Of a stretch of DNA of 64,000 nt, positions 16,182 to 45,673 are shown one piece after another. Position 1 is the first letter of the stretch. Every line of letters begins with the position of its first letter. The DNA is from an uncultured Clostridia bacterium (GTDB lineage: Bacteria > Bacillota > Clostridia > Oscillospirales > Ruminococcaceae): the NCBI GenBank assembly GCA_945829235.1, contig CALZUA010000004.1:62001-126000 (forward strand), given 5' to 3'. The position numbers and the translations under genes were made by a program. Below the pieces are notes generated by a model. The model did not search any database, had not been told where the DNA came from, and worked only from the letters and a program-made list of their open reading frames with translations.

Positions 16182-17682
16182 GGTTCTATCCCAAAATCTG
16201 TGTAAACCACAAATGTGCATTAAGTGAAATCTGTAAGCTCTGGGTGCATTTCGATGCATTCAGAGCTGAATTTATGGTATCACAAAAATATTAAGTTGTC
16301 AATAGGAACTGCTGTTGAAGTGGAGGGCGAAGTCCGTAACGGAAACAGCAGTTCCGGCGCGGCGCTCACTCGGGTATGCGGTCGCCGTAGTATAACGCAA
16401 GCTGAGGGTAAATTTGCCCCCAATCCTGTCGCCGTCCCGTCCACTTTTTGGTGATGTCAAGCATAGCCAGATAAAGCATCTTGAACAAACTGTCGTCGGT
16501 CGGGAAAACCGACTTGGATTTAGTTACCTTACGCAGCTGCCGATTGAAGCCCTCAATGGCGTTAGTCGTATAAATGAGCCGTCGAAGTTCCTCCGGAAAC
16601 TTGAAATATGTGCTGAGATTTGCCCAGTTTTCTCTCCAAGATTTCGAGATTTTCGGATATTTTTTATCCCAGACATCAGCGAAATCGTCCAGAGCAGCAA
16701 GCGCGGACTGCTCGTCAACAGCCTGATAAACCCGTTTCAAATCTGCCATCAGAGCCTTTATATCCTTGTACGAAACGTACTTGCTGGAGTTCCTGAGTTG
16801 GTGGATTATACAATTCTGAATATCCGTTTTCGGGAATACCGCCGCTATTGCCTCGCTGAATCCTGTAAGGTTATCCGTGCAGGCGATGAGGATATCTTCG
16901 ACCTTTCGGTTTTTCAGATTATTCAGAACGGAAGCCCAGAATTTTGCGCTTTCATTCTCGCCGACCCACATTCCGAGCACCGATTTTTTGCCCTCAAGAT
17001 TGATGCCTATTGCTATGTAAACCGCCTTTTTTACTATCTGACCCTCGCTGCGAACGTGGTAATGAATTGCGTCCATAAACACGACTGCATACACGCTCTC
17101 AAGCGGTCTCTGCTGCCATTCTCGAGCTTCTGGAAGAATTTTGTCTGTTATCCGGCTAACCGTTGTGTCCGAGATATCCAATCCGTAAATGTCCTTAATA
17201 TGCGCCTGAATATCCGAGGTAGTCATTCCTTTGGCGTACATTGAGATTATCTTGCTTTCAATTGCTGCCGAGACGCTGGCCTGGTTCTTGGGGAGTATCC
17301 TCGGTTCAAACTCGCCGTTTCGGTCCCGCGGAATATTGATGTCTATCTTCCCGGCGCTTGTTTTCAGAGTTTTCCGGCTATGACCGTTTCTGCTGTTTGT
17401 TGTTCCGGATTCGGTTCTGGCGGCATGGTCATATTTCCCATAGCCAAGCGTTTCCTCAAGCTCAGCGTCAAGGCTGTCCTCCATAAACTCAGCTATCGTT
17501 TCCTTGAACAGCGTTTGGATATCCTCCATGCCCGTAACGTTTGCCTTGCTCAGCAGCTCTCGTATGAGCTCCCGTCTTGCTTCTTCCTCCGGTGTCCTTT
17601 TTCTGCCCATTTCTTTTTGCTCCATTTGTTTGCTTTTATTATACACTATTTATGGAGTTTACACAAGATTTGGGAGGGTTTC
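16182..17682. mobile_element. IS256-family insertion sequence
   Basis: Terminal inverted repeats are visible: left 16182-16207 and right 17657-17682 share CCCAAA and TGTGTAAAC, about 19 of 26 matches when one is inverted. They enclose one transposase gene. The left non-coding part (16182-16365) holds two hairpins, AGCTCT...AGAGCT near 16237-16268 and GGAACTGCTGTT/AACAGCAGTTCC at 16305-16355. I could not identify a target-site duplication. Confidence 0.8.
16366..17646 (-). CDS. IS256-family transposase
   Basis: The 426-residue DDE transposase has the family hallmarks: an N-terminal DNA-binding region (EETLGYGKYDHAARTESGTT, with SRNGHSRKTLKTSAGKIDI after it), VVFMDAIHYHVR with the first catalytic Asp, CTDNLTGFSEAIAAVFPKTD with the second Asp, the CIIHQLRNSSKYVSYKD signature, and TTNAIEGFNRQLRKVTK with the catalytic Glu. 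No frameshift or stop is seen, so it may be active. The first Met residues (MYNKSKQ, MEQKEM, MGRKRTPEEE) are close together; the exact start is uncertain by up to 13 codons. Confidence 0.95.
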   Translation of the reverse strand: MYNKSKQMEQKEMGRKRTPEEEARRELIRELLSKANVTGMEDIQTLFKETIAEFMEDSLDAELEETLGYGKYDHAARTESGTTNSRNGHSRKTLKTSAGKIDINIPRDRNGEFEPRILPKNQASVSAAIESKIISMYAKGMTTSDIQAHIKDIYGLDISDTTVSRITDKILPEAREWQQRPLESVYAVVFMDAIHYHVRSEGQIVKKAVYIAIGINLEGKKSVLGMWVGENESAKFWASVLNNLKNRKVEDILIACTDNLTGFSEAIAAVFPKTDIQNCIIHQLRNSSKYVSYKDIKALMADLKRVYQAVDEQSALAALDDFADVWDKKYPKISKSWRENWANLSTYFKFPEELRRLIYTTNAIEGFNRQLRKVTKSKSVFPTDDSLFKMLYLAMLDITKKWTGRRQDWGQIYPQLALYYGDRIPE

Positions 17683-18030: not shown

Positions 18031-19185
18031 TTAAATATTAGGATTAATATACGGAATATTTGAGCAATTGATTTCTACATTCTGAAGCCAATATTTGCTT
18101 TTACAAAACCGCTCGATCACCTCTTTGATATATTTTTGCTTAGGTGACGGTGAAACTGTGATACTTACAATCGGCAGATGTCCCTCGCATATTATTCTCA
18201 AAGGATTCGCTTCCCAACGTTTTTTTAGCTTTGGACTGTCGGCCCGCTCGATCTTGTGTTTATTAAATAATTTGGTAAACTCCCTGCAGACATCCTTCTG
18301 ATCTTTACCAACAGGAATAACGATAGGTTCCCTCATTCGCGATTCGATGTGCTCTTTAAATATTTCTTTAATTTTCTCCGAGGAAAAATATCTTTTAAGC
18401 GAATGCTCTCCGCGCAACAAATCACCGCATTTAACGATAATATACGGTATCTTTGTTCCGTCGGTCAATGTTCTGAATTGTATGTAATCCTCTAACTCTC
18501 CGTTTGAATTGTCAAACATCAGCCGATATTCACTTTCCTCAATGAAGTAACCACTTTTTAAATAAGGCACGATATCTCGTAATCCTATCTTATAAAGACC
18601 TTCATTTTGATCGGGCAGCAATTGCTCTATCGCCTTCCAGGAATTTTGCAAATTCTCTTTCACGTCATATATTCCGCTGTCGTTTTCGGCACGATCATCC
18701 GTGCGGCAATATATAACAGGCAACGGAGTATTTTTATATAACTCCATATTGCTCTTAGGCTCGCTCGTTCCGGATCTACAAATCGTGTACGTGCTTTCGC
18801 TAATGAACTTAAAGCCAATCGAAGCGCCACCGTTAGGACAATACCCGCGCCATTGGCTCAGTTTATCGTTTTCCCCACAGAAACACACGATGTAATTATC
18901 TCCGTAATAGTTCTCTTGGTTTATCCACTCTTCCCCTAATATTTCCCCTTCGGTAGAGTCGTTCGAAAACCTTGAACGTGATGCCCAGAATGAATCCCCC
19001 TCAAGAATACTAAAAAGCTTTTCAATAGATGTGTAGTGATATAGTATATCCGTACATGTATTTTTGACCACAGGCCTAGATTCGGCAGGAAATCCGGATA
19101 TCAATCCGTTAATCGCCTTCGTAACCGATAACAATTTAAATTCATTGAGCGCAATATATGGCGTCTCTTTTTTGGGGCTTAACAT
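18031..19185 (-). CDS. DUF2971-like protein
   Basis: The 384-residue protein matches the pattern of the DUF2971 family: LYHYTSIEKLFSILEGDSFW, then SRFSNDSTEGEI, YIVCFCGENDKLSQWRGYCP and GASIGFKF, followed by a beta-rich middle and the EESEYRLMFDN segment. DUF2971 proteins are uncharacterised but recur in defence islands. This is the third gene of the giant GHKL operon, starting 3 bp after the stop of the receiver-like gene with AGGAGAGGAATGATAAATG, so it is translationally coupled. It could be the effector of the operon, but that is inference only. Confidence 0.7.
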   Translation of the reverse strand: MLSPKKETPYIALNEFKLLSVTKAINGLISGFPAESRPVVKNTCTDILYHYTSIEKLFSILEGDSFWASRSRFSNDSTEGEILGEEWINQENYYGDNYIVCFCGENDKLSQWRGYCPNGGASIGFKFISESTYTICRSGTSEPKSNMELYKNTPLPVIYCRTDDRAENDSGIYDVKENLQNSWKAIEQLLPDQNEGLYKIGLRDIVPYLKSGYFIEESEYRLMFDNSNGELEDYIQFRTLTDGTKIPYIIVKCGDLLRGEHSLKRYFSSEKIKEIFKEHIESRMREPIVIPVGKDQKDVCREFTKLFNKHKIERADSPKLKKRWEANPLRIICEGHLPIVSITVSPSPKQKYIKEVIERFCKSKYWLQNVEINCSNIPYINPNI

Positions 19186-19188
19186 TTA

Positions 19189-19971
19189 TCATTCCTCTCC
19201 TTTCGGAAATTGACCTATTATAAAATTTAATTTATCCATATTAAGCGAACCAGCAAAAAACTGTGTTCGAGAAAAAATCTCCAAGTCCTTTGGCGCTTTA
19301 TCATCCAACTTTCTATACAGGTTTATCCAATTATTCTGAAGGGAAGAAAGATAGGTGTGCATAGAGTATAAAAAACATTTTGCATGAAGCTCTTTGGTAA
19401 TATAATAATATAATGCCATAGAAAGCACGAAACCCGGCTCTTTAGCGATAAGACTGTTATATTCTTGATCAAGCAGCACTACATCAAGCATATATACATA
19501 TTCGCTATTTGCCGGAATAACATTATCGCCTGATTCATCGTTATCGCAAAAAAAACCGCCGACACACTTCACAGCAGCTTCACACATTTTATTGTTGTCT
19601 TTATCATATATGTCTTTTTTGTAAATAATCTCTTTCCACTTGTTAATTATACCTTCTGCTGTTTTGTTTGAAGGTGCAAGAACAAAAACATCTTTTGGTG
19701 TGTTTTTTTCATAATATGTGTTCATTTCCTGCAATGCCTTTTTGAAATCCGGATTTTCCGATGCATATCGGCTCTTTATATTCATAGTCAAAACATCTGA
19801 GATCAGTAAACTGAAGGCTTCCGGATCAAAATCATCCATATCATGGTATACCGCATTGCCCAAAAAGACTGCTTTCCCAAGGATCCCGCTTGCCCAAAGT
19901 TTGGGGAATGTTCCCCTGACAATGTTTTCCATATCATTCTTCCTGTCATTGATCCAAATTATTGTGTTCAT
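19189..19971 (-). CDS. Receiver-like protein of unknown function
   Basis: The 260-residue protein has no family I can name. Its order of strands suggests a divergent response-regulator receiver fold: TIIWINDRKND at the N-terminus (acidic pair position), MLDVVLLDQEYN around residue 170 (phospho-acceptor-like Asp) and KCFLYSMHTYLSS (Ser/Thr position). No invariant Lys is evident and a long insert separates the first and third strands. ATG 19971 follows GGAGG at 19981-19985 and overlaps the end of the giant gene by 26 bp. As the partner of a GHKL-containing protein, it may be a phosphate or signal acceptor; this is inference. Confidence 0.5.
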   Translation of the reverse strand: MNTIIWINDRKNDMENIVRGTFPKLWASGILGKAVFLGNAVYHDMDDFDPEAFSLLISDVLTMNIKSRYASENPDFKKALQEMNTYYEKNTPKDVFVLAPSNKTAEGIINKWKEIIYKKDIYDKDNNKMCEAAVKCVGGFFCDNDESGDNVIPANSEYVYMLDVVLLDQEYNSLIAKEPGFVLSMALYYYITKELHAKCFLYSMHTYLSSLQNNWINLYRKLDDKAPKDLEIFSRTQFFAGSLNMDKLNFIIGQFPKGEE

Positions 19972-22900
19972 CGTCAATATCCTCCGTAAACAAAGGCAAC
20001 TGTGTCAAAAACCAGTAGTCGTATTTCTCTGCGTTCTCATCAAGATGTACTTTGTGATTTCGTATGATCTTTTTAGCCTCATCCGAGGTGATGTATTTAA
20101 ATTGCGTGTCACAATTATCATCACCTGATCTATCCGGATTATTCAAATCCCTTAGACCTAAAACAAAATGTCTGATAGTAAAAAGGCTCATATGACCGTC
20201 TCCGTAATCCAGCGGATCGTGGATCCGACGGTATATCTCCTCGTTCATCCGATCACACATAGTTGTGTCAATGCGATTTGAGTTAACATTGTTTAAAATG
20301 ATAAGATTTTCGTTCTCTCTTAACAAATACACGTAACTATGCAGACTTGAAGATCCGAAATAATCCCTATACCAAATCAGATTATCTACCCTTGGCAGGA
20401 ATGAAGCATCAGTGGTAGCGTACTTAATTGCGGAAAAGAAAACATCAAACAATATGCATTTAATAAATTCACAATTGTAGTAAAAAACATTTTCGTTAAC
20501 AACAGCTGAAAAAAATTTGACATCATCGGCAATACCAATATACATATGCACAACCTTTTCTAGCATACCGAAACGCTCATCACAAGAAATATTCAGGTCG
20601 TCAAAATTTTTAGCCGCTTGTTTGAATACATCGCTTTTTAGTTTCTCGTCTATTTCAAGATACAACTTAGGGATATCTTCATCACTTATGTCACTATTAT
20701 TTAAACTGAAAGACCTGTTAAACAGACGGGCGATTTGACCGTTAACATAGTTTTGAAAAAGAAGCCATAATTCAGCACGTTTAAAACAATCTTCTTCTAT
20801 TTGCCTTGTTTTAAGGTCTACAGGGTGCAAAATACAGTTTAAGGTGGACACATCTCCTAACCCGAACACCTGAAGGGAACCCCGCTCATCTGTTGTTGAC
20901 ATATGGCTTGCGGAACGCTCATGAGTAATAACAATCTCCTCTTGAATTGACTTTGCATGCTTTTGCATAATCTCGCCATCGAAATCATCCTCAAGCATAT
21001 TCATGATCATGCCCCGACACGATAAAATATTTCTCAATACAACAAAGGGAAGTTCCTTGATGGCCTCAGGATTGTATATCCCCACATAAAGAAAAACCTT
21101 ACTTAATGTGCTGAGTTTTCGTCCTATGGCGTGGCTGCCCTCTCTATCACCTGGGTTATCAAAATAAATTATGACGTAAGGCTTATGATAACCATTTATT
21201 ATATGATGCTTATCATCATATTCAGGATGATTTTGGTCGTCAAGCCAGATATTTTCCCCATTTCCCGGATTATGCAGTTCTACATGATAGCCGTTGCTTT
21301 GTAGATCGTATTGTTCATTATTCCATATCTCAATGATACGGTCTTTTATGATATAACGTTCTTGCTTAATATCAAATTTCGTGTTCTTAAACGAACTCGC
21401 ATCGCTTAAAATATGTATCTCCTCAAAATTGATTCTGCTCCCAGGATCTGCGCTAAATTCCTCGCTGCCACCGGCACTAAGTACGGCAACATAATATTCT
21501 GTCTTGTCGCAAGTAAGCTCATTAAGCATCTTTAAAAGCTTGTCGGTAAACGTAGTATAACGCAATGATATTGGGTTTTTATCTTGGCGACCAGTTTGTT
21601 CACCTTTCTTTGTTTCCAAAAAATTCAGCCACTCCACAGAAAGGTTGTTGGGTGTTGAGTTCATCCTTGCCCATTTGCGCTGCATTGAAAAATTGCTTAA
21701 GTAATAGGATCTTGCGCCGCCTTTATTTTCCGTGGCTTTGCTTTCTAAAACCGTTTTAAAAGTTTCCATAGTATCCCTTTCCAATGACGATGTAAGCAGA
21801 AACAAATCAACATTTCGGTTTGAATTTGAAATTGCGATCTCGTTAGCTTCACTATTGATGTTAGTATCGTCAGTTATTTCCTTGCCTGTAAGCATATAAT
21901 AATAAAACCAAAGCGAATGAGTTTCGTCAGTATTGCAGTCTATTATTTTATGTATATGCGCGTAATATGTTATCCAAAAACACTTTTTCGCGTTTTTCAT
22001 CAAACACTGATTTGGATTTAACAAGCAGTTGCACGACGAATCATCGCATATAATACCCGAATCGGGAAATGTCGTTTCTACAAGACGTTCTACCCTTTCT
22101 ATAACACTTTTTCTAAGCAAATATGTGCTCTTCATATCTGCCAATGACTCAAAAAGCACATCCTTATAAAAGTAGAGAATATCCTGTGTGCCGTCGCCGA
22201 CCAAGCATAAAATGCGCTTTGCCAGTTCAACCGTTCTCTTTATTCTGCTGTTACTAAGTAAAAAAACCTTATAATTGTCTTCTTTAACATTACTTTTCAA
22301 AGTCTCAAAAATGAGACGCGCATCTTCTTCCGAAGAATTCCTAGTAATATTTATATAGACTGTTTCGCGTTTTATACCTAAGTAGCACTCTGCTAATATA
22401 AGCAGAAATGTTTGCATTTGATTGCGAAAAGAAAAATCATATGAAAAGAATGGACGTGACAATAATTTTATAAGCAGTTCGCATAAAATACAACCTGCTT
22501 GTTTGTGGTGCCGCGCTTTTTCTTTGCCAAGATTTTCTGTTTTTTTACCAGAATTATAATTTGGAATCAAATAATTATTTGTCAAATCCTCAAGCAGATC
22601 GGTAAAAAGAAAATTCGACGGAGCCTTGTTTATGCTTTTTCCTTCACCAAGCGATACGATCAATTCAAAAATACAAATGATGCTATCGTAATATTCTCCG
22701 ATACTTCTTGTGGTAACTCCATCTTTAAAAATAAAATTTTGTGCAATATGCGAAAGCACAAAACGCTCATATGCATTGTTCCCACTTTTAAGCTTAGTCA
22801 TTTCTTCAACATTATTAAAATCTACTGGAATGAGATCAAGATATTTTTTTGCCCAATAATTTGCGATTATTTTTATTGGACTTCTGTTAAAAAGCCTTTT

Positions 22901-25900
22901 TGTATCGACACTGAGCTTGCAGCCAACGCATGAATCCCCCTGACGTCTCATATGAGAAACATCGATATGTACAAAAGCATGACAATCGGAGGGGTCACCT
23001 GATAGAACAAGCGATCCCTTTGACTCATCTGAAAGTCTGTCAACGAGTAAGAAACACTTTTTTATTACCACTGGAGAATACGACTTAATATATTCATTGG
23101 GTATAAGAGAACGCAGAAAACTGTTTGCTTTTTTTATCGTATCCCCTGTATTTATGTTGTCATCAACAAAATAAAATTCAACCGGATTGCCGAGGTCAAA
23201 AATTTCCTGCGTTTTATGAAGTCGCTCTATAGTTCGCCTTATGGACTCGTGCTCGCATATAAAGTTCGTTCTGAATTCTTTATCCTCATTTATGGAAATA
23301 ATCTCTGCCGTTCCGTTGAAATAATATGTGTTTACATACTGCGCGAAGCCTACGTTAGTGTTGTGTTCAGGAGAAAAAATAATTTTCAGCCTGGGACTTT
23401 TTAGGCGATCGCTTTGTTCATTTTCTTTCTTAAGCCCATAAAGCCATTCTCTGATCTCCTCTCTGACCTCGTCTTTGTAAAAAAAATCCTGGGTGCTTAT
23501 GTAGTATTGAAAATGATTTTTACCGCGTTCAATATGTCCGTAATATACGCAGTCTCTCAGCAAGGTTATTCTGTGATTGTTTCCTCCGACTTTACTTTTA
23601 TCGGAGCCGTCAGATATGCCTTTGTGCAGTTTCCTGCGTTTATCTAATAATTTATCTATAAGTTGTTGAGACCGATATGATATCTCGGAGCGTATCTGCT
23701 GAGATGGAACCGTTGATGTTAAATCTGTTTCAACAAGTGGCACCTCGTTTATCAGTCCATGTTCATTCGGAAAACAGAGTTTACATTTTAACGGATGCTC
23801 CCAAACAGTTGTCGTGCGCATCAAATAGTATATTTTAGGATTGCCGTTTAAAAGCCTTAACCCTTTTTCGCTATCTGTTCGTATGGTTATACATTTTGAC
23901 ACGGAATCAGCTTCTGACCAGTAATCAGATTCAATTTCTGACGGGAATATTTTATTTTCTGTCGAACGGCATTTGCAGTCTCCTACCCAAAAGGCGGTAA
24001 AATTATTGACCAAAACAAAATTACCGTTGCTGGAATCTTCGCGATAGCTGTACAGCTTTTCCAGCATTTTATCAAAAGTCGTAAGAGTGGAACTGATAGG
24101 TACTATTGTAACAAGGTTGATATCTTCTTTGAGTTTAATCAGTTTACCGACTGATGAACTAATCGACGAATCATTCAATAATTCTGCGCCGCTGTAATCA
24201 TTCGAAAAACTAAAAAACAATTGGATTGTATCCATTTTTGTTTCGCTTTGAAGATTATACTGATATGATGCAAAGGCAACCTGTGCTTGTGCATGTTCAA
24301 TTTTTTTGTACAATTCCCCCTTATCAAGTTTGGAGTACATTTCGTTATATTTTTTTATAGTACCTTCAAGATACAACTTGGTTATTTCAACTAACGACGT
24401 TACTATTGCCTTAGAGTATGAAGAATAACTGTAATACATTATAGGTTTGATAGTAAGAAGCTGCGGATCAATCAAATCATTAAGCTTTTCAGAAAATATT
24501 TTGAACACCTTAAATGCAATGCGATTGGCGATAGTAGTTCTGTAAAACAAGAATGACATTTCATAGAATGAGCGAATGTGCACCTTACTGCCGAGTCTTG
24601 TGTGAGTATCAACTAGCTTGTAGCCACAATTGTCCGCGCTGTCTATTCTCTCTTCTACCATGTCTAGCGTTCTCTTCTCAAAAATTGTAACATTTGAATC
24701 AGGATTATACGGAACAAGTATATCAAACGGCACAACAACAATCTTATCATCCGAATTACTTGATACGCTCAGAGACGCAATATATGCAGAGCAGGCAGAA
24801 TCATACGGTCTGAACAGCGGCGAACCATGTTCAACAGCCATTTCAACAGCATTTATCACAGCCTGTTTTATTGTGTTTCCAATTATTTGAACAAACCATT
24901 TACAACTTCTATCAATAAAATAAAGTTGGATATTGCTTTTAAATCGCTTGCAGGAGAGTGCAACAATAACTTCTCTGAACGTTTCAAGAAATTGACGAGT
25001 AAGATTTGTTGTTGCAAAAAATACATTTTTTTCGTCAGAAAGCTTGTTCAGCGCTCCAAACAGACCTTTGATAAACACTTCACAATTCGCCGCATCGTTA
25101 AAATATTCGCCGTCTTTTTCGGACACATACCAGTAATTAACAAGCTCTGAATTGTCATTTTGAAGTTTTAACATTTGAGTTTTCAGATAACTCTCCCACT
25201 TTAATTGCACAGTGAGTTTCTCATCCGGATCGGTCATTTTGTAACCGCTAACATTCTCAATAATATCAGCCGTTTTTTCAGGCGTAAACAAATAGGTTTT
25301 CAGATCTAAAACAGACGAAAAAGACGAGTAATCCTCAATAAAATTACATCCGCTTATGCTTGCGCCGCCGCTTAATATCTCATTTCTCCAGCTGCCGAGC
25401 GAAAGAGTTATAAGGTATTGCGTACCTGGTATTGAACGTTTTCCTTCTTTAAAATAAGCAGAAACATCAGAATTTTCCGCTTGACCGTCATTTATCCAAA
25501 CAAAGCTGCTGCCGTCAATGGATTCATATTTGTCTTCACTTCTCAAAATAAAATTCGCACGACAATGCTCGACAGCCTGATAAAACAGAAGCAACCCTAT
25601 ATGTGAAGTGCAGTCAGCACTGCGAAATTTTCTCCATGCTTCCTTTGCATCAATCTCCTGATCTTCAAACTTATTGAAAAAATGTGAAACCTTTATGCCC
25701 GATGCGTTGACAATCGAATTATAACCGTTAATTGTATCATCGTCAATGAAATCGCCACTCTTAAGGACTGCTATTTCTTGTGAAAGTCGTCTTTTAAACG
25801 TATCGATCAACGTACCGTTTGTGTTGATATCCACAACATTAAGCCTTAGCTTGTTATTATTATCAATGCAGAATGTGAATACGCACGACTTATATTTTGA

Positions 25901-27193
25901 ATGCTGAACAGAGTTCTGCATTAACTGCTGAAGTCCTGCTGACAATTCTCTGGCCATCTTATAGGAGCGGTCAATATGCTGATAATCAACTTGAAGTTTA
26001 TCATTGGAATCATCAGTACCGTACAAAAAAGAAAACAAAGCAAATATCAGCCAATTATTGTGCTCCTCACCAAATTTCGCTGATACAGTCTCTTTGAAAA
26101 GAAGCGTCTGATACTCATCGTATCCTTCTATAAAATGTCTGAGACGATTCCATGAAGTTTCAGCAATATATGCAAGAAGCGCCGCTTTAGGATCGTCAGA
26201 ATTCGCGTTGTAAAAACGAAGTCCCCCAACATTAAAAAGAGTTTTCTTATTTCTGGCATCGGAGCCACTTTGCCAAAGATCGTCTTTTTTGATATATGAT
26301 GACGGCTCAATATCTGACGTACTTTCGTTAGAAACAAACAATTTATTATAAGAAACTTCATTTATGATTGTGATCGGAAAAAAACTGCTGCCGGCAGATG
26401 ATATTTTATAATCCATCGGTATCAGTTCGGGTACGACAATGTTATCTCGCCGAGCAAATTTTGGAGCATAGATTATACCCGTATACTCCTTTGAAAGAAG
26501 GCGGAGATATCGTGAAAACATGTTGTGAGATCTGTTTAATTCCTCGAATTTTTCGGGATTATTGTAATCATAAAAAGGGAAATACGATAAAGGCAATTTA
26601 TCGCTTAAGAGAACCACAGAGAGCCTGTTTTGATTTACTAAATCATTAAAACGAATCAACAGTAACGCTAAATATTGAAGATCGAATAGATTTTCTTCGC
26701 TTATCTTTATCCTGATATGAAAATAAGTATCCCCAGACTTTACAGCACTGATAAAACTAGCAGTACTGATGCTTTGTCTTTCTTGAATTTGCGCGCGTAT
26801 TGACAACGGCATCTGCACACTGCACGTTATTTTGTTTTCATCCAGATAAAATATTGAAGAAAGTTCGGACAGCACAGTTTTATTTGTTTCTTCATCGTTT
26901 TTTGATATTTTTAAAACCTCATCGTGATATTTTTTTATAATATCCACATTACTACAAAGTGCAGAAGTCTCCGTCTGTACGATCTCGCCCTTTGGGCACT
27001 CGAAATACCTTACCGATGGTATCTGATTAGCTTCACATCTTTTTACCATTTGCTTATTCTTGCCTATGTTAAAAAATCCTTGTAGTTTATTCCTACTCAA
27101 CCATTCTGTATCATTTAAAAGTTCGATATTCTCAATTACATAAGAATAATCTTCATGGCAATTATCAATATTAAAAAAAATTATATGTTTCAT
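19946..27193 (-). CDS. Giant GHKL ATPase / phosphoribosyltransferase-like protein
   Basis: A single 2,415-residue frame starting at AAGGAGATCAACTAAATG. Around residues 410-560 lies a GHKL (histidine-kinase/Hsp90-type) ATPase fold: the N-box LQQLMQNSVQHS, VVDINTNGT as a G1-like box and SHIGLLLFYQAVEH as a G2-like box. Near residue 1344, VEFYFVDDNINTGDTI is a classic phosphoribosyltransferase PRPP motif; an earlier VPISSTLTT (about 1032) may belong to a second such domain. CxxC pairs (KCKLC near 1132, CVGC near 1421) could bind zinc. Near the C-terminus are an H-box-like THERSASHM (about 2094), FFSAIKYAT (about 2254, N-box with Asn replaced by Ser) and GDGHMSLFTI (about 2331), a degenerate second GHKL domain. 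No membrane segments are evident. It is probably cytosolic; the function is unknown. Confidence 0.75.
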   Translation of the reverse strand: MKHIIFFNIDNCHEDYSYVIENIELLNDTEWLSRNKLQGFFNIGKNKQMVKRCEANQIPSVRYFECPKGEIVQTETSALCSNVDIIKKYHDEVLKISKNDEETNKTVLSELSSIFYLDENKITCSVQMPLSIRAQIQERQSISTASFISAVKSGDTYFHIRIKISEENLFDLQYLALLLIRFNDLVNQNRLSVVLLSDKLPLSYFPFYDYNNPEKFEELNRSHNMFSRYLRLLSKEYTGIIYAPKFARRDNIVVPELIPMDYKISSAGSSFFPITIINEVSYNKLFVSNESTSDIEPSSYIKKDDLWQSGSDARNKKTLFNVGGLRFYNANSDDPKAALLAYIAETSWNRLRHFIEGYDEYQTLLFKETVSAKFGEEHNNWLIFALFSFLYGTDDSNDKLQVDYQHIDRSYKMARELSAGLQQLMQNSVQHSKYKSCVFTFCIDNNNKLRLNVVDINTNGTLIDTFKRRLSQEIAVLKSGDFIDDDTINGYNSIVNASGIKVSHFFNKFEDQEIDAKEAWRKFRSADCTSHIGLLLFYQAVEHCRANFILRSEDKYESIDGSSFVWINDGQAENSDVSAYFKEGKRSIPGTQYLITLSLGSWRNEILSGGASISGCNFIEDYSSFSSVLDLKTYLFTPEKTADIIENVSGYKMTDPDEKLTVQLKWESYLKTQMLKLQNDNSELVNYWYVSEKDGEYFNDAANCEVFIKGLFGALNKLSDEKNVFFATTNLTRQFLETFREVIVALSCKRFKSNIQLYFIDRSCKWFVQIIGNTIKQAVINAVEMAVEHGSPLFRPYDSACSAYIASLSVSSNSDDKIVVVPFDILVPYNPDSNVTIFEKRTLDMVEERIDSADNCGYKLVDTHTRLGSKVHIRSFYEMSFLFYRTTIANRIAFKVFKIFSEKLNDLIDPQLLTIKPIMYYSYSSYSKAIVTSLVEITKLYLEGTIKKYNEMYSKLDKGELYKKIEHAQAQVAFASYQYNLQSETKMDTIQLFFSFSNDYSGAELLNDSSISSSVGKLIKLKEDINLVTIVPISSTLTTFDKMLEKLYSYREDSSNGNFVLVNNFTAFWVGDCKCRSTENKIFPSEIESDYWSEADSVSKCITIRTDSEKGLRLLNGNPKIYYLMRTTTVWEHPLKCKLCFPNEHGLINEVPLVETDLTSTVPSQQIRSEISYRSQQLIDKLLDKRRKLHKGISDGSDKSKVGGNNHRITLLRDCVYYGHIERGKNHFQYYISTQDFFYKDEVREEIREWLYGLKKENEQSDRLKSPRLKIIFSPEHNTNVGFAQYVNTYYFNGTAEIISINEDKEFRTNFICEHESIRRTIERLHKTQEIFDLGNPVEFYFVDDNINTGDTIKKANSFLRSLIPNEYIKSYSPVVIKKCFLLVDRLSDESKGSLVLSGDPSDCHAFVHIDVSHMRRQGDSCVGCKLSVDTKRLFNRSPIKIIANYWAKKYLDLIPVDFNNVEEMTKLKSGNNAYERFVLSHIAQNFIFKDGVTTRSIGEYYDSIICIFELIVSLGEGKSINKAPSNFLFTDLLEDLTNNYLIPNYNSGKKTENLGKEKARHHKQAGCILCELLIKLLSRPFFSYDFSFRNQMQTFLLILAECYLGIKRETVYINITRNSSEEDARLIFETLKSNVKEDNYKVFLLSNSRIKRTVELAKRILCLVGDGTQDILYFYKDVLFESLADMKSTYLLRKSVIERVERLVETTFPDSGIICDDSSCNCLLNPNQCLMKNAKKCFWITYYAHIHKIIDCNTDETHSLWFYYYMLTGKEITDDTNINSEANEIAISNSNRNVDLFLLTSSLERDTMETFKTVLESKATENKGGARSYYLSNFSMQRKWARMNSTPNNLSVEWLNFLETKKGEQTGRQDKNPISLRYTTFTDKLLKMLNELTCDKTEYYVAVLSAGGSEEFSADPGSRINFEEIHILSDASSFKNTKFDIKQERYIIKDRIIEIWNNEQYDLQSNGYHVELHNPGNGENIWLDDQNHPEYDDKHHIINGYHKPYVIIYFDNPGDREGSHAIGRKLSTLSKVFLYVGIYNPEAIKELPFVVLRNILSCRGMIMNMLEDDFDGEIMQKHAKSIQEEIVITHERSASHMSTTDERGSLQVFGLGDVSTLNCILHPVDLKTRQIEEDCFKRAELWLLFQNYVNGQIARLFNRSFSLNNSDISDEDIPKLYLEIDEKLKSDVFKQAAKNFDDLNISCDERFGMLEKVVHMYIGIADDVKFFSAVVNENVFYYNCEFIKCILFDVFFSAIKYATTDASFLPRVDNLIWYRDYFGSSSLHSYVYLLRENENLIILNNVNSNRIDTTMCDRMNEEIYRRIHDPLDYGDGHMSLFTIRHFVLGLRDLNNPDRSGDDNCDTQFKYITSDEAKKIIRNHKVHLDENAEKYDYWFLTQLPLFTEDIDDEHNNLDQ

Positions 27194-28160: not shown

Positions 28161-31100
28161 TTATATCGCTAAAGTCACGGAAATCTCTGCGATTACGGCG
28201 GAATCATACCCGTCCTCTCCGAACACGTTAATCTTAAAAACAATCATCGAGGGTGCAGAATGTTTTCCACTTGTTCCGAGCCACTCCTCAAGCGCTCTGA
28301 CAACTTCTTCGGGCTTTGAAACCTCGGTAAGAAATACTGCAGGAATTCTCGTCAGAATATCCCTCTCCGACAGTGAGTCAAGCTTATAACAGCAAGTAAC
28401 CGCAACAGAAGATTTTTTATTGTAACCGGTTAGCTCCAAAAGCTCCCAAACCATTTCAACAGCTCGGTCAATTTTGTTTGCCGACAGATTTTTTGAATAC
28501 TCCACATTAACCAAAATTGGCTGTAAAAAAACCTCCTCTGTTCTAAACAAAAATGCTTCGTTTACCCGAATGCTGCTGTTATTAAACAGGTTCTCGTTTT
28601 GAACTATCCACACGGACGGCTCAATATACGGACAAACATAGACCGGCATATTGGAGAGAGTAACGTTGAAAACGATATCCTTACCGAATTCTACGCCCGA
28701 AACCGGCTTTGGCTGTTGGATTTGAATATTATGCGTTCGGATAAACTCTCTGCTTGTTTTGTCAAATACCTCGTAAATAATCGATGTAGTATCCGAAAGC
28801 TTAAAGTTCAGCTTCAAAACAATCTCATCATACACAGCCTCCGAAGACATCAAAACGGTGTTTTCCGACATAGCTTCGGCAAGTGTGCCTGCAGCGTTTG
28901 CAATCTGCTCATAGGCTCTCTCAAATTCCTCGTCCGCTGCGGAAATATGTTCAAGCAGCTCTGAGCGTTTATAGTCGTAGTCCGCCAAAACATCAAAAAT
29001 CCGAGCGCTTCCCGCAGATTTACAAGTGCTGTTTTTCACGAACCTCAACCGCAAATACAGAGTTTGCTGTTCAACCGCCTTACAGGATATCCTTACGGTA
29101 TAGCTGAACCGCAGTATCTCGTCATCGGGACAAACAGCTTGCGAAAGCAGCTTTGGATTTTCGGGGAACAGCTTGAGCGGGTGAGGAATTCCCAGCTGCG
29201 CGCGCAGGTCAATTTTGTCGGACGTCAGCGGTGACAGCAATCTAAGCCAGCTTGAGCTTTCATATCCCGATGAGTCGTTTTTGATATTATATTCAAAATG
29301 AACAAACGACAAATCCAAATCACAAATCTCGTTCGAGTGCTTTTGTACACCCGATGAATAAACGCAAAAACAACCGCTCTCGGAATCAGCTTTTTTGCAA
29401 TGCAGATTGTCCGAGCCCTTAAGGACGCCCTCCAATCTGCTGCGGTATTTCTCCGCTGCGTGCTTAATGTCGGATTTATAAACGCAAATTACGTCCGTAT
29501 CGTAAACATTATTCAGTGTTTTGCGGAAAAGCTGCACGGCGGTTTCCTGGGCGGCAGATTTATCATCGCCCAAAAATCCGTCTATAAGGGGCGCCAACTT
29601 GTCCGCAAAGCATTCAGCCAAAGCGCCCTTGACTTCAATCAAATCATCGGCAGACTTTGGACATTTTTTCACTGCACTTGACAGAATATCTCCGCAAAGC
29701 AGATTTTCAATATCGCCAAGAAATCGCTTTATCCAAAGCTCAATGTCGATATCCGTAAACTCAGCCGTGACGCATGTACCATCAAACGCAGTTACCGAAG
29801 CAGCGCGTGTAATAAGATTTCGCGAAAACGGAGCTGTTGAATAAAATCTCGGTGAAAGCTTGATTCCGTCTTGGGTATTGATAACATACGGTGAGATTGA
29901 AATTTCCTCAAAATACGATTTGCGGGGTATTCCATACAAGCTAGTGCCGCCCGCTGCCAAAAGAATATCGGGAAATGCTCTTTCAAACTTCTCCTCAAAG
30001 TCCTTGGAGCGTAAAATTTCGCACTCTGCGAACTTTATGCTCTCATAATCACATTTGGCATTTTTTCGCGTTGTTCTTGCTGTAAACCCGATTTCAAAGA
30101 CGCTCTCGGGAAGTGCGTCAAGAGTTACCGCGAAGGATATTGAAAATTCCGCTTCGTTCAAATCGGAATTGCCGCAAACGGCATTATATACTGCGCGCGT
30201 GTAATCTCTGTAACGCGCAATGTCATCTGAATTAAGCGTATAAGCGCAGCCAAGCGTTGAGGTGAATTCTATTCCGATATCGCAGCCAGCCTGACGCATT
30301 GCCGTAAGAGATAACTCACGAGCACGCTCCGTATCCTCATCGGAACAAACAAATCTTGACAACACAACAATCCTTGCCGCGTTTTCAGTTTTTTCAACGA
30401 AATAATTTGTTTCGGTGCAAGGAAGCTGATTTATGCTCAGCGGAAAATCATTGTAATCAGCTTCAACCTCAAGCGAGCCGATTTTAAATGTGTTGCCAAG
30501 AACATCGCGGCGGTAAAAATCCAGACAGAACCGCTTCCCAACCGCATTGTACGGCGATTCGGGGTATTCCGGATTACTGCAAAGACGATACAGCGGAACA
30601 GCGGCGCTGTACAAAACAGAGCCGTCCGATTTCTGCTGCGGAAGTATCGTCATAGCCTCCAAAATCGCGCCCTCATCGGTTGCTGCCGTATAACCCAAAA
30701 CGCTGAAAAGCTCGGACATTCTGTCATCCGTCAAATCTCCGTCTGCGCAGACGCCAATACTTCCGACCGGATAATTCGGCACAAAAGCCTTTTCCGCTTT
30801 TCCGATAAACACGGGTTTCTCGTCTGAAGCGTCATCTAAAACAACTTTGTTGATAAAACTGCCGCAAAGCGCTTCGTTTTCAAAAATCGCTAGAAAATAT
30901 ATTCTCGCTTTTCCGTCCGAATCAAAAGCTTCCTCTGGAATATCGGTACAGTAAAACCAAAATCCGCCGCCGATAACCGAACATTCCCACGCCAAAAGCA
31001 GAAATTTGTTTGCATCGTCAATTCCCGCGATATTCCTTAATTCATCGGCAGAAACAAGGTTTTGCGAATGCGTTTCCGTTGAAAGGTCGGAGCGGATAAT

Positions 31101-34100
31101 CACACAACTCTCGGAAGCAATCTCCATATACCCGACTTTTTCGGTATCAAATCTTGAAGCCCTGCATAAAACCTGAATTTTCTTAATGTTTTTATCAATA
31201 ATTTTATAAAGCGCAGAGCGTTCCCGAGGCGAAGCTCCGCAAAAATAATATATCTCCCTGCCCGATTTGTAAACAGTAAATTCGATTAAACAAGCCCAAT
31301 TGAAAGCACGTTTTCTATTCGACATCTCAACAGAATTAGTGCTGTTTCGCGATAAATATTCGCACATATCTTCGGGCAAAGAACAAATCGTCCGACGCGA
31401 ATTATTTTGAAGAATTATTTCAATTTCCGATGCCGACCAGCATTTAGGTGTTTCCGAGAAATCCTCCGCCCTTTGCGGAACTTCAGCAATCGAAATTTGA
31501 CCGCTTGGAACAGCATTTGCAAGAGCTTCTCCGTTCAGCTTCGCAGCGTTTTCAGCGGACAGGCTCACCCAATCGCATTCCTCTCCGCTTTTGTATATAG
31601 AAAAGCTGAATTCACCGGTGGAAATATCAACATCAATCTGCTGACGCAGCAGCTTAAAAAGCGGTTTAATCTCTCCGTCAACAGGCGATGACACGCGAAG
31701 TCCCTGAAGGAAAAACCGTGAAATCACAGCGCCCGTGCGAGTGGTGTTCTCGGCAGTCAAAATCAGGCTTTTCAGCTCTTCCTTCGACAACTCATTCGGT
31801 GCAATAACCACATTTTGTACACTTGCAAGCTCCGCTGTTCCCGCATTCAATGCGTCGGCAATTTCCGCTGCGGTAATTCCCGATTTTCCGACCGAAACAG
31901 AAGAAAGTCCAACTTTTGCATCGGACAAAATTATATCTTTCAGAGGACTTAATATCGGCTGCTCCCATAAAAAGTTCTCGGCGATTTCTCTGGTAAAATC
32001 GGGACAAAGTCTTCGATTTAATTCAGCAAGATTATTATCCCGAATGATGTATTCGCTGTCTAAACGGTAATATTCCGCGCCATCGGAATTATTCGATAAA
32101 AAGCGTTCCAGAAAGTCCTCCCAGCCGTCTGCAAATTCACCGTTAACAAGCGCCGCAGCCTTGGCTATCCTCACGGCGCTGTCGCCCGCCAAAGCTGTAT
32201 ATTTGCCGCTCCAACCGATAACGCCAAGCGTTCTGCTGCCGAAAACATCGCTGCGCCAGCCCTGCTCAAGCCCGTTGTCGGAAACGAGCTGTTCCGCGTA
32301 CCTGAAATATAAAACCTCCGGTTCGTACAGGCGCACGAAGAACACGGCTGCCGCTTCCCGCGCAGTCATCTTTGCAATTCTGTTGTCGAATGTGTGATTA
32401 TTAAGCACGACCGTTTTTCCGCGCGCAGGTATCATCGAAATTTCGGAAATATCCCTCCACAAAACGTCCGCGCTTATGGAAAATTTCTCGCTGATTTTGT
32501 GCAGCGTGTCGCCTTGCTGAATGGTATATGTGAATTTCGGAATACTGCTTATATTCAGCAGGATATCGTGATTTTGCTCCAACAATTCCTCCGCAGAAAT
32601 TCTGTAATGTTCAGAAAGCTGGTTGAAGCTGTCTGTTTCAACGGAAATGCTCTCGAACTGTCTGCGTGTAAGAGAAATAAGCTCGGATAAAATCATTCTG
32701 AAATAATCGGTGAGGATTGCCGCGCTCATAGGCATTGCTTCATCGGAAGCATTTTTCTGCGATATCTCGTGAAACGGGTCGGAGTTTAATTTCGCCAGAT
32801 ATTCCCCGATAATCCGACAATATTCGTCCGTAACGATATTTTGGCTGAAATCGGATTCTGTTTCTCCGCAAACCAGCCTTAAACAGTGCAGCATCGGAAA
32901 GAAAATGCCGTCCAAGCTGTTTTCGGCAGATTTATTTTCAGTCTGAGCCTTAACGGTAATTCGCAGGTTTTTTGAAAAAAAGTCCTCAAAATCCGAAAGG
33001 TAAAGTTTTTCCTCTGCCTTTTCGGGAATTGAAGCCGCCATATCCCGCGTTACTTTTTCCTCGGGAAACGACGCCAGAAGCCAGCTCAAAAGCATCTCAA
33101 AAAGCCTTGCAAAATCTTCTGCAGACACCAAGCAAAGAAAAGCCGCACAATAATCGGGAGTGCTTCCGCTGTTCGGGTTATTGACCGAAAACAACGGCAA
33201 AACCAAGGTCTGTATCTCCCAATCGCCGAGCTTTTTGCAGGGGAACATTTCGAGATTGTACGATATTACAGAACGAACATCATTTGAATTTTCAAGCTTC
33301 CACGGCGTTACAGAATCATTTCCAAACGTAAATTTGATGGTCTTGTCAAACACGAACGAAAAGTTGATTTTTATAAACAAAATTTTCAGTGAAGCGGATA
33401 ATTTCAAATACATCGACAGCTTTATAACAGATTTGCGAAAACTCTCGATTTTCATATCGCACATAGCGCTGACCTGCGAGCTTACCGATATCGAAATTAT
33501 TTTCAGATCCGCGCTTAAAAAGAGAGTTCCGCCAACTCCCACGGCGGCTTGAACGAGATAGTACATTCCGCTTTTTTGCGTTTGGTCGTTCGGTTCAAAC
33601 AGCGCAAAAACACCCTCGAGAATACCGGTCGCAGTGAGCGACACCCCGCCCTTGACTATTCCGAAATCAAACGAACGTCCAAGCCCCACACGAAGCCCTA
33701 TCCCGATAAGCACAACCGGAGAAAACGCGCCGTTGGTGATTTTGGGAACATTCTTTGCGGCATCGCCTTTAAGCGTGCCGAAATAAATTCCGCCGCGCCC
33801 TGTAAATATGCCGTATTCCAATCCAAATGACTTTGAAAAATCACCGTTATGCGGAAATCCCAAATCAATCAGAAAGCTGCCGTTTGTGTAAATCTCAAGA
33901 GCCATCTGCCCGAGCGTAACAGCAACCGCGCCTAAATTCAACCGCGACATAGACTTCGGCAGTGTTACAGTACCGCGGAACATTCCGATACTATCGCTTA
34001 TTTTCCGATAAACAAGCTCCAGCTCCAACCCATTGAAATAATAAATAGGAGATTTTTCCGAGACATTGACCGTTATCTTCGCGCCGTACAACTCGGGATC

Positions 34101-36596: not shown

Positions 36597-36608
36597 AGTA
36601 TTTTTCCT

Positions 36609-38378
36609 TTACACAAACAGGCTGTTTGGGGGAAGACTTCTTTTCATGGTATTCGGCTTTATATTATCGCGTTTTTCAATCACGGTCATAGGTTCTTTTG
36701 AAACGCATTCTATCAGTTCCCTTGAAGCATAAAAGAATGCGTCACCGGTCAAATAGATACCCTTATCTACTTCTATTGTTATAAGCTTTCTATCTCTATC
36801 AAACATATTTATGTTGTGCTTGCGCGGGTCAAATGGCGCATGCTGTTCCGCAATATCAAAATATGCCTTTGACGGAATATGATATTGGGTATTGTTGACG
36901 CATTCACTAAACACTGTGGAAACCTCGTTTCCCATTGCATTATAAAGTTTTTCCAAAGGCTGTTTAAATTTTTTGCTTATTTCTCCGTTTTTGTTAAGAA
37001 TAAAATTTGAATTATACGAACCATGATGCGGCGCAAAAATATATTGACATTTAACGCCGGAATTTTCAAGCTCTGATGCGACATCTAATTGATTGTGATG
37101 GGTTACATCTCCGGGGAATAAAATTGATTTGGAATTATTTGCTTTATCTTTATATATTAAATTTACGACAACAGCAGTTGCATTGTAAATAACACCTTTT
37201 TCATCATCTATATATTTATTTATAATATTCAATTTGGTGACATTATCCTCGCTATCGTCCGACAAGGGAATACTAGGATTGCAAATATCCAAATTCAAAA
37301 ACTTGAAATCGCTGAAGGCTTGAAAATTGCCTCTAAACATCTGTTTAACGTATTTTTCGAGAAAATTTTTTAGTACAATATATCTATCACTTTCGCTGTA
37401 CCCTCCCATGATAACCGTGTTCAGCTTAAACGTAGGAGATTTCAACTGTGCTCTTTGACCTATGAGGTAATTTAAGCTGTTGCAGTCGTACATAATATTC
37501 TCTGCTTTAAAATAATAGTTCCCCAGCCAAGTCAGCCACGAAGTATAAATTTGAATTACTTTTTCAAACTGAGAACCTTTGGACTTAATAAAAATAGCAT
37601 GATTAAAATCTGCAATAATACAGTCGTACCAATTATTATAAGAAATAAATATTTCTTCTGACGACCACTTCATATTGAATTCATTTTGATTGAATGTGAG
37701 AGTTGTTTCTATTTCGGTGTATTGCACTACGATGGTTTTGCGGTTTTTTTCCTGAGAAATATTCGCTTGTATTTTTATTTCAAATTTAGGCGTACCATTT
37801 TTCTCATTTGATTTATCTTTGTATCCCCAAACGTTATTTTTTGCCACGGCAATAAGTTTATTACAATATAAATCACCGGTTAGTGAACTAACAGTCTGAG
37901 TTATTTCAATCTCTTTGCTGCAATAAATATAATCCCTGAAATCTGATGAATCCTTGTAAACATATTCTATATTTCCGTTTTTACATAAAGTAATTTTCTT
38001 AGTATCGCGGGTATAACCGTTTATCATAGTATTCTCTCCGCGGAGGAACCAATGAGCCTGATTGACGGGTTCCGACCAGCGGTTCAGCTTCGACAACAGC
38101 TTTATGATAAGATTATTGTGATCTTGGTCTTGATGAGAGGATACGAGCAAATCCAAATGATCATTTCCGCCCTCCAATATCAAACCCGCCATGTGATTAA
38201 GCACTTTATCTATCCATTTTTCATCAATCGGAAAAATATTATATTCCTTACCTGCACACGCCGGCTGATACCCGCAGTCGAAAACAGCGTTGTACGGCGA
38301 GCCGTCATCGTTTATGCCGTGCAGCAGCGTACACAGCCCATGACCTATGTTGTAAGCAAATAATCTCAGCTCTTTCAT
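36609..38378 (-). CDS. Metallo-beta-lactamase-fold protein, ComEC-like hydrolase domain
   Basis: The 589-residue protein has the metallo-beta-lactamase signature SSHQDQDHNN (HxDxDH, residues 82-87), an upstream NAVFDCG, a later ILFPGDVTHHNQ metal-ligand Asp region and FAPHHGSYNSN, the pattern of the ComEC/Rec2 C-terminal hydrolase. No membrane segments are present, so it is a soluble enzyme, probably a nuclease or phosphodiesterase; the substrate is unknown. ATG 38378 follows GGGAGGCTGACAGT, so the upstream in-frame start at 38429, which overlaps the previous gene, is rejected. Its place among large structural-looking genes is unusual. Confidence 0.8.
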   Translation of the reverse strand: MKELRLFAYNIGHGLCTLLHGINDDGSPYNAVFDCGYQPACAGKEYNIFPIDEKWIDKVLNHMAGLILEGGNDHLDLLVSSHQDQDHNNLIIKLLSKLNRWSEPVNQAHWFLRGENTMINGYTRDTKKITLCKNGNIEYVYKDSSDFRDYIYCSKEIEITQTVSSLTGDLYCNKLIAVAKNNVWGYKDKSNEKNGTPKFEIKIQANISQEKNRKTIVVQYTEIETTLTFNQNEFNMKWSSEEIFISYNNWYDCIIADFNHAIFIKSKGSQFEKVIQIYTSWLTWLGNYYFKAENIMYDCNSLNYLIGQRAQLKSPTFKLNTVIMGGYSESDRYIVLKNFLEKYVKQMFRGNFQAFSDFKFLNLDICNPSIPLSDDSEDNVTKLNIINKYIDDEKGVIYNATAVVVNLIYKDKANNSKSILFPGDVTHHNQLDVASELENSGVKCQYIFAPHHGSYNSNFILNKNGEISKKFKQPLEKLYNAMGNEVSTVFSECVNNTQYHIPSKAYFDIAEQHAPFDPRKHNINMFDRDRKLITIEVDKGIYLTGDAFFYASRELIECVSKEPMTVIEKRDNIKPNTMKRSLPPNSLFV

Positions 38379-38400
38379 ACTGTCAGCCTCCCGATAAATA

Positions 38401-41079: not shown

Positions 41080-41082
41080 CGT

Positions 41083-43338: not shown

Positions 43339-43362
43339 AAAGCTCTCCATTTTAGTCATCAA

Positions 43363-44983: not shown

Positions 44984-45673
44984 CTATATTTTTGAAAAAA
45001 TCATCATCTTTCTCTTAGTTTCGGCAACTCTGTTTCTGCTTAACAGAAGCGCAGTTCCGTCTGTCAAAGTCACGGTGGTTTTTCCGATTGACTCGATAAA
45101 CCGAAAATTCACGAGAAAACTTTTATGAATGCGAATAAAACCGATATTTTTCAGCCGCTCCTCATACTCGTTCAATGTGCCGCTAACTCGCTCCTCGGTA
45201 TCATCGAAAAAAGCGGTAACTCGATGCCCTTTGACCTCGAAATATCGGATACTGTTCACGTCTGCGACAACCTCTCCGAACGGCGTTTTGAGAAGCAGAA
45301 ATTCACTTTGCAAGTCAAATTCGCGTTTCAGGCTCAAAACTGCCTCGCGCAATTCCTCCAGAGCGAATTTTCTCACATAACGAAACGCGCCGTACAGGTA
45401 GCCGATGTGGGCAAGCTCGGTGTGGTTCGTGACGAAAATTATCTTCGCGAAAGGGTTGTCCGCGCGGATTTTCTCGGCAAGCGTAAACCCGTCAAGAGTG
45501 GGCATTCTGATATCGAGGAAAAACGCGTCAAAGAGCTCACGAGCGCTGTCCTCAAGCAGAATTTTCCCGTCCGTGTAGCACTTTATCTCACATTCATCGG
45601 GGTAAAACTCGCGCAGTTTTTCCGCAACCAAATCAGCTATTTCCCGCTCGTCATCACACACCACAAACTTCAC
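44984..45673 (-). CDS. LytTR-family response regulator
   Basis: The 229-residue protein has an N-terminal receiver (FVVCDDEREIADLV acidic pocket, DAFFLDIRMPTLDGF phospho-Asp, FVTNHTELAH, AFRYVRK Lys) and a C-terminal LytTR DNA-binding domain (about residues 128-229, YFEVKGHRVTAFF, GFIRIHKSFLVN, LLLSRNRVAETKRK), the AgrA/LytR architecture. GTG 45673 is preferred to the adjacent TTG because of spacing from GGGAG. No cognate sensor kinase gene is adjacent. It is the first gene before the Hint/LysM operon and probably activates it. A truncated copy lies at the other end of that operon. Confidence 0.9.
   Translation of the reverse strand: MKFVVCDDEREIADLVAEKLREFYPDECEIKCYTDGKILLEDSARELFDAFFLDIRMPTLDGFTLAEKIRADNPFAKIIFVTNHTELAHIGYLYGAFRYVRKFALEELREAVLSLKREFDLQSEFLLLKTPFGEVVADVNSIRYFEVKGHRVTAFFDDTEERVSGTLNEYEERLKNIGFIRIHKSFLVNFRFIESIGKTTVTLTDGTALLLSRNRVAETKRKMMIFSKI

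Follow-up and report, generated by a model that had tools for sequence, protein, structure and literature searches.

The locus and its three genes

The window analysed here is a stretch of 64,000 nucleotides from a contig of an uncultured Clostridia bacterium; all coordinates refer to this window and all residue numbers to the giant protein encoded in it. An earlier sequence-only reading had described this protein as one frame of 2,415 residues, which is indeed a single open frame, located on the minus strand, a detail omitted there. Its domain order is an N-terminal GHKL domain, an alpha/beta linker, two PRTase-type domains (PRTase1 and PRTase2), a helical region, a region containing His2097 and a degenerate C-terminal GHKL domain. 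Put plainly, the unit is a rare set of three genes in a gut bacterium: behind the giant come a small switch-like protein and a protein resembling an ADP-ribosylating toxin.

19946..27193, minus strand: giant protein, 2,415 aa, single open frame
25379..26041, minus strand: N-terminal GHKL ATPase-like domain (residues 385-605), assigned by hhalign and motif conservation
24689..25276, minus strand: alpha/beta linker domain (residues 640-835), from predicted structure
23792..24688, minus strand: PRTase1 (residues 836-1134), type I PRTase fold, loop hhPIxSTLTT at 24074-24106
23774..23785, minus strand: CxxC pair 1 (1137/1140), Cys at each position in 18/18 ungapped rows (gap in L027)
22949..23596, minus strand: PRTase2-like domain (residues 1200-1415), PRPP motif VDDxxxTGxT at 23135-23167
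22919..22930, minus strand: CxxC pair 2 (1422/1425), both cysteines in 19/19 rows
20903..20905, minus strand: His2097, candidate phospho-acceptor histidine at a conserved position
19964..20491, minus strand: degenerate C-terminal GHKL/CA-like domain (residues 2235-2410), hhalign 82.3%
19189..19977, minus strand: receiver-like partner, 262 aa, overlapping the giant gene by 32 bases
18031..19185, minus strand: DUF2971 partner, 384 aa, candidate effector, Pfam DUF2971 at 4e-5, 3-base gap to the receiver-like gene
16366..17646, minus strand: Mutator-family transposase downstream of the operon, Pfam Transposase_mut at 1e-116

Architecture of the giant protein

A genome scan revealed 18 relatives of the giant protein (L008, L009 and L010 are contigs of L018, L025 and L027, and each was counted once). 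Because the motif residues are conserved across a 19-row alignment, the motifs are not chance occurrences. Conservation extends to the linker domain, where E705, K709 and G772 are each present in 19/19 rows, and the protein is under purifying selection (dN/dS 0.18 against the close homologue L012, residues 520-2415 of the window protein). No family name is available for the giant, since Pfam, PADLOC and NCBIfam returned nothing above cut-off and weak off-target matches only. Foldseek against the PDB found no match at E <= 0.001 for the model of either the giant or the DUF2971 protein; the top row for the giant is PCH-2 (E 0.041, prob 0.66), followed by PRTases and one histidine kinase. Among viral proteins, the fold search found nothing resembling the whole (best E 3.8e-3 at prob 0.18) and returned PyrE-type rows at prob 0.99 and E 0.02-0.04. 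Profile-profile comparison gave no sign of internal duplication, with hhalign values of 4.4% between the two GHKL alignments and 0.4% between PRTase1 and PRTase2.

The GHKL motif set proposed for residues ~410-560 could be located and is conserved. It comprises the N-box LQQLMQNSVQHS at residues 421-432 (Q423/N427/H431), a G1-like Asp455, a G2-like HIGLL at 531-535 (H531-G533) and a terminal PGT at 589-591, with N-box, G1 and G2 standing in Bergerat-fold order. Among rows with a letter at the position, Q423 is kept in 18/18, N427 in 17/18, D455 in 17/17 and G533 in 18/19. Profile comparison supports the assignment in part: hhalign matched the domain at 96.6%, across all three boxes, to a histidine-kinase CA profile built from 19 of 20 loci of the same genome (score filter), whereas Pfam HATPase_c found no match in the giant at E up to 1 and the locus is absent from the 35 HATPase_c places of its own genome. 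The histidine kinase 4r39 stands in Foldseek row 5 (prob 0.93, E 0.085). Searching PDB sequences with the alignment of this domain retrieved two irrelevant matches.

Both PRTase-like motifs noticed earlier are present, in domains of different character. The second of them, VPISSTLTT, occupies residues 1031-1039 of PRTase1, with T1036 and T1039 in 19/19 rows. It lies in the clearest PRTase fold of the protein, whose best fold matches include type I PRTases and PurR, one PurR structure being ppGpp-bound. In all 19 rows PRTase1 is devoid of the acidic PRPP-loop pair, the position being Pro-Ile in 17 rows and Pro-Val and Gly-Ile in the remaining two; owing to this loss, PRTase1 is probably a binding pseudo-enzyme. 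PRTase2 carries the PRPP-binding pattern reported near residue 1344, VEFYFVDDNINTGDTI at residues ~1338-1353, which fits hhhhDDxxxTGxT (VDD in 16/19 rows, [TS]G and G1350 in 19/19). By fold, this canonical VDDxxxTG domain is less certain than PRTase1. Its hhalign match to a PRTase profile (E 7.5e-4, prob 25%, against <=1.0% for five other alignments) leans to the motif, because the 8 of 30 loci used for the profile were selected by an in-frame PRPP-loop pattern. The predicted strand/helix order fits a PRTase; the VIA rows mostly span model residues 495-805 and barely cover PRTase2, and a PDB sequence search with the PRTase2 alignment gave zero matches. The two CxxC pairs, likewise anticipated, probably form a metal site together.

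N-terminal of the C-terminal GHKL-like domain lies His2097, which is kept in 17/17 rows having the position, L028 included, and in 16/16 rows of the C-terminal alignment, from which L028 was left out. The sequence-only reading had seen a kinase-like set here with Ser in place of the N-box Asn. A degenerate GHKL-like domain is supported and Ser2254-Ala2255 is correct for the window protein, but Ser is not a family trait: among the 16 rows having the domain (L015, L027 and L028 left out), the residue is Ser in 7, Asn in 6, Asp in 2 and Thr in 1. Asn2301 replaces the G1 Asp in 16/16 rows with the domain, which L027 and L028 do not have. Judged by its N-box and G1 residues, the module has no intact ATP site. 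Histidine kinases are its top sequence matches in the PDB, at E 0.27 and below threshold.

Partner proteins

The two downstream proteins had been called receiver-like and DUF2971-type. Their coupling and conservation hold and DUF2971 is a true Pfam match, but the receiver-like set does not match a receiver profile built from 18 of 20 loci by score filter (hhalign 3.7%), so that 'receiver-like' is a label by motif. The gene occupies the same place in 17 loci. In aligned columns, with the L028 row left out, its orthologues show the acidic pair in 13/17, the candidate phospho-acceptor Asp at the third-strand position in 16/17 and the Thr/Ser in 16/17; the window protein itself has Asn-Asp at the acidic-pair position. 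The Pfam families recorded for 18 members do not include Response_reg, and a Pfam search for a macrodomain in this partner found none. A PDB sequence search with the set returned entries of one ribosomal protein only.

The DUF2971 partner matches PF11185 at 25.3 bits (cut-off 22), and Pfam DUF2971 was found in 15/17 orthologues at E up to 0.1. Residues E217, E219, R221, N75, D76, E79, Q111 and W112 are invariant in 17 rows. The best six VIA fold rows for its model are all DarT, and the protein looks like an ADP-ribosyltransferase with a predicted DarT-like fold. Against L012, dN/dS is 0.09 for the DUF2971 protein and 0.34 for the receiver-like protein. In the literature searched, nothing joined DUF2971 with defense, and DUF2971 alone appeared in one genome re-annotation.

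Occurrence and genomic neighbourhood

The three genes are conserved as a unit at 17 loci, all found through the giant. Three draws of related genomes each gave the operon in no more than about 1%; one draw gave 4/396 genomes with the giant after G381 was dropped, whose match (92 residues, two stops, E 4e-4) has no giant at the locus. In the window the operon is AT-rich, and transposase or recombinase genes occur within 5 kb at 7 of the 17 loci. Defence neighbours are found at some loci, as judged from 25 listed families out of 93 matched, taken without assignment to loci or a control set; the scan took in 96 of the 159 proteins of 110 aa or longer encoded nearby. Contrary to the possibility that homologues occur only outside defence or mobile contexts, such neighbours stand at several loci. 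Other neighbours, by reading, are sugar-nucleotide and further ordinary genes.

The relatives L027 and L028 carry a calcineurin-like phosphoesterase, and the L028 protein ends in a metallophosphoesterase while retaining His2097; an alternative metallophosphoesterase output exists in relatives. Viral contigs contained 2 and 109 stretches with the pattern and no relatives, the plasmids and phages searched gave zero matches, and PADLOC-DB held 0 families for the three proteins at E up to 1. The phylum label of L018 is doubtful (titled Bacteroides, yet a contig of G168, which is placed in the window's order), as perhaps is that of L021 from the same NALB series, and transfer between phyla is therefore suggested by two Spirochaetota rows only.

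A putative alarm-and-shutdown system

We interpret the three-gene unit as a signal-gated immune system of the abortive-infection type, with a probability of about one half; it is probably an undescribed, putative alarm-and-shutdown system against phages. The giant protein would act as sensor and switch. Its N-terminal GHKL domain and the two PRTase-type domains would detect a nucleotide-type signal altered upon infection; as a pseudo-enzyme, PRTase1 should still bind phosphate or nucleotide, next to a PRTase2 with an intact PRPP motif. The C-terminal module with His2097 may then signal to the receiver-like protein, via phosphotransfer or conformation, and this protein could release or activate the DUF2971 protein. 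With its predicted DarT/Tpt1-like ADP-ribosyltransferase (ART) fold, the latter would draw on NAD+ to modify its target, either nucleic acid or protein, and bring growth to a halt. Tentatively, this can be extended to an undescribed immune class in which one giant chain joins two GHKL-type domains to a pseudo-PRTase/PRTase tandem monitoring the PRPP/purine or alarmone pool, a receiver-like relay fires DUF2971 as a new ADP-ribosyltransferase effector family, and a sister branch has replaced relay and ART output as a whole by a metallophosphoesterase.

Three alternatives have to be weighed. Rather unlikely is that PRTase2, or the GHKL-PRTase core, synthesises or uses up a nucleotide messenger, with the receiver-like protein as nucleotide sensor and DUF2971 again as effector. 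The preserved PRPP motif and the unmatched receiver profile are consistent with this model, and a 2020 J. Bacteriol. paper reportedly describes a receiver-related sensor of nucleotides in immune systems; the invariant His2097, the third-strand Asp and the first-strand acidic pair of most orthologues argue against it. It is improbable that the unit serves housekeeping or stress, the GHKL-PRTase part sensing purine, PRPP or (p)ppGpp and tuning metabolism via a regulatory ART with no phage role: the PurR matches of PRTase1, one ppGpp-bound, and the ordinary neighbours favour this, but the rarity of the operon, its AT-richness and its mobile and partly defence-related surroundings do not. A toxin-antitoxin or addiction module, with the giant as sensor or accessory freeing a DUF2971 toxin from a receiver-like antitoxin, would fit a gene for a predicted ART fold beside a faster-evolving small partner, DarT being the toxin of such a pair, but is doubtful given the giant at 17/17 three-gene loci, though all were found through it.

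If the immune reading is correct, it brings in a type of defence whose phosphorelay-like switch uses folds of nucleotide metabolism as its sensor. ADP-ribosylation would become a testable function for DUF2971, which Pfam still lists by name as a family of unknown function, and the apparent swap between ART and metallophosphoesterase outputs would make the sensor and effector halves separately testable.

Comparison with known systems

ShosTA, an anti-phage toxin-antitoxin pair with a PRTase toxin (PMC12593503), shares a PRTase domain within a defence protein, and ShosT structures appear at Foldseek ranks 33 and 38; these matches are low-scoring (prob 0.10 and 0.14), and architecture and partners differ. 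The accessible parts of PMC13092281 describe DS-8 and DS-9, metallophosphatase systems with a calcineurin-like phosphoesterase as defence protein, as also found in L027 and L028. In contrast to these relatives, DS-8 has a NACHT domain and DS-9 a HAD partner, and those parts do not describe a GHKL/PRTase giant. Judged from the domain abbreviations in its legends (HATPase and REC for predicted systems in Fig. 6F, PRTase for validated ones in Fig. 4), some systems of that study may overlap with the three-gene unit.

Different from the DarT toxins (7omw, 7yk3, 8baq), the DUF2971 partner belongs to another Pfam family and its small partner has no macrodomain match. Compared with type I phosphoribosyltransferases and PurR (4paw, 1p4a, OPRT, APRT), PRTase1 is without the acidic pair and resides inside a giant signalling protein. 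PRTase-CE (PF24390) is a PRTase-type domain of conflict systems, and Pfam found no match to it in 21 rows at E up to 0.1. Detocs is a defence system composed of a histidine kinase, a receiver and a nucleotide-acting effector. The likeness lies in a sensor kinase-like protein and a receiver-type protein that would gate an enzyme effector; here, in contrast, the putative sensor combines two GHKL-type with two PRTase-type domains, and the candidate effector is a DUF2971 protein with a predicted ART fold.

Operon structure and conservation

The 2,415-residue frame described in the sequence-only reading is real and forms, together with two partner genes, an operon in the window:

19946-27193, minus strand: giant gene, a single frame of 2,415 residues
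19189-19977, minus strand: receiver-like gene, 262 residues, directly downstream of the giant gene with a 32-base overlap
18031-19185, minus strand: DUF2971 gene, 384 residues, after a 3-base gap

No model in Pfam, PADLOC-DB or NCBIfam matched the giant above cut-off. The 384-residue partner is a DUF2971 member (Pfam 4e-5, above cut-off), as the same reading had proposed. The GC content of the operon is 37%, compared to 50% in the core-gene stretch at the window's left (HSP70, DnaJ, glutamine synthetase and enolase), and a Mutator-family transposase is located 384 bases beyond its downstream end.

This gene order recurs in 17 of 19 loci (18 from a genome scan plus the window), and Pfam recognises DUF2971 in 15 of these 17. 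Gene junctions range from -53 to +35 bases in 16 of the three-gene loci, including the window; in the remaining one, L015, the frame of the giant is broken (L015:7644-14994) and both partner genes are open. Two loci, L025 and L026, carry the giant as two genes, divided between the GHKL and phosphoribosyltransferase (PRTase) parts; the same division is seen in L120, a partial locus cut off by the end of its contig. Comparison with the close L012 locus yielded dN/dS values of 0.18 for the giant, 0.34 for the receiver-like gene and 0.09 for the DUF2971 gene; thus, all three are under purifying selection. In the same comparison (window 19189-19977 against L012:5917-6705), the receiver-like gene diverges faster than the genes beside it, with 71% versus 88-90% identity; a contact surface under pressure might behave in this way.

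Distribution of relatives

Protein-query searches, in which the window's own genome is counted, matched the giant in 2 of 61 near-relative genomes and in 5 of 396 from the order; one of these five matches, in G381, was discarded as spurious. An alignment of four PRTase regions retrieved 18 loci from a bacterial and archaeal genome collection, three of them already found by the earlier searches, and matched 2 of 398 phylum genomes. A later profile matched 3 of 392 class genomes, one of them new (G1157); the window's genome is included in both counts. By record title, the relatives comprise 17 MAGs, mostly Lachnospiraceae or Oscillospiraceae, and one Pseudoflavonifractor record (An44). Two MAG relatives belong to Spirochaetota and are nested among Bacillota rows in a midpoint-rooted tree. 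Plasmid and phage records, queried with the window protein, contained no relative, and none was confirmed in viral contigs.

N- and C-terminal kinase-like domains

Both GHKL-type domains proposed from the sequence are supported, the second as a degenerate GHKL-like one. In the N-terminal domain, Q423-N427-H431, D455, H531-G533 and the closing PGT-x-hhh-P are almost invariant among relatives. A 17-sequence profile of this domain matched the catalytic ATP-binding (CA) domains of histidine kinases encoded by the window's genome at 96.6% (E 6e-10), spanning all boxes, whereas four alignments with no match expected (receiver-like, PRTase1, PRTase2 and DUF2971) reached at most 0.5%. A histidine kinase was also the fifth Foldseek row for a model of residues 330-1460 (probability 0.93, E 0.085).

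Residues 2040-2415 align to the CA domain at 82.3% in a profile alignment, and their top PDB sequence matches are histidine kinases, below threshold (E 0.27). His2097 is retained in 17 of 17 rows. Every one of the 16 rows containing the C-terminal domain has Asn in place of the G1 Asp, and only six of them retain the N-box Asn. This apparent kinase-type module may therefore be inactive by itself, and phosphate might come from the N-terminal GHKL domain, or from none.

Genomic surroundings

One locus adjoins BrxA, BrxB, BrxC and an AbiH-type gene, and another has an FRG protein nearby. Strong PADLOC scores were obtained for BREX, AbiEi, AbiEii, PDC-S20, PDC-S22 and RdrB among 96 neighbours, pooled rather than assigned per locus and without a control set. 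Seven of 17 loci (the window, L012, L013, L016, L017, L018 and L026) have transposase or serine-recombinase genes no more than 5 kb away; recombinases were called by BLAST clustering with the Pfam-named ones of the window, and the IS3-type calls in L012 and L018 by reading. The remaining loci, also by reading, are surrounded by ordinary or polysaccharide genes.

In L014, a radical SAM protein (L014:14662-15765) starts 4 bases past the DUF2971 gene; it matches PADLOC viperin models weakly and in part (4.7e-14), which may be a generic radical SAM signal. Upstream of the partial homologue in L120, AAA ATPase-type genes and a 152-residue protein (L120:681-6482) resemble, by eye, RloA/RloB- and OLD-type defence genes.

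Upstream of the operon, window 28161-44874 (minus strand) holds five successive large genes (2,811, 606, 892, 759 and 503 residues), with a LysM domain in the first, a Hint/pretoxin-HINT domain in the last and no Pfam match in the middle three; the cluster may be of the secreted or polymorphic toxin type. A 124-residue frame about 100 bases upstream of the L022 giant (L022:7397-7771) aligns at 29% over 116 residues (E 1e-7) with the C-terminal, HINT portion of the window's 43363-44874 gene and is perhaps chance company or a recurring neighbour. An ordinary LytTR response regulator (44984-45676, minus strand) adjoins the HINT-gene cluster, and the region therefore also has a classical regulator. 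Further right, a Ser/Thr kinase, a DUF4411 and M78 peptidase pair, serine recombinases and a phage integrase (47647-48906, 50325-52052 and 53554-59848) probably represent a mobile island.

Proposed function and relation to known systems

L027 and L028, which group as one clade (support 100/100), are the only two of the 19 loci without the receiver-like and DUF2971 partners within the locus DNA examined. Their giants lack the C-terminal kinase-like domain, and each locus has instead a calcineurin-like phosphoesterase (Metallophos 2e-14 and 1.9e-13), encoded by the next gene (752 residues) in one case and as a fusion with the giant in the other. This pattern suggests that the C-terminal kinase-like domain acts with the two partner genes, receiver-like and DUF2971, as a single output module, with the GHKL-PRTase part as the input common to both versions.

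A signalling-based conflict system, hypothesised from the sequence at the outset, is still the best-fitting reading. The GHKL-PRTase part of the giant would take up a nucleotide-type signal, which would move via His2097 and the receiver-like partner to the DUF2971 protein, acting as a predicted ADP-ribosyltransferase. We give this model as a whole a probability of about one half.

Metallophosphatase proteins are also contained in the defence systems DS-8 and DS-9 (PMC13092281), which in this respect resemble the phosphoesterase loci L027 and L028. The unit itself is best classed with the known kind that combines a sensor kinase-like protein, a switch and a toxic enzyme, rather than under a named system.
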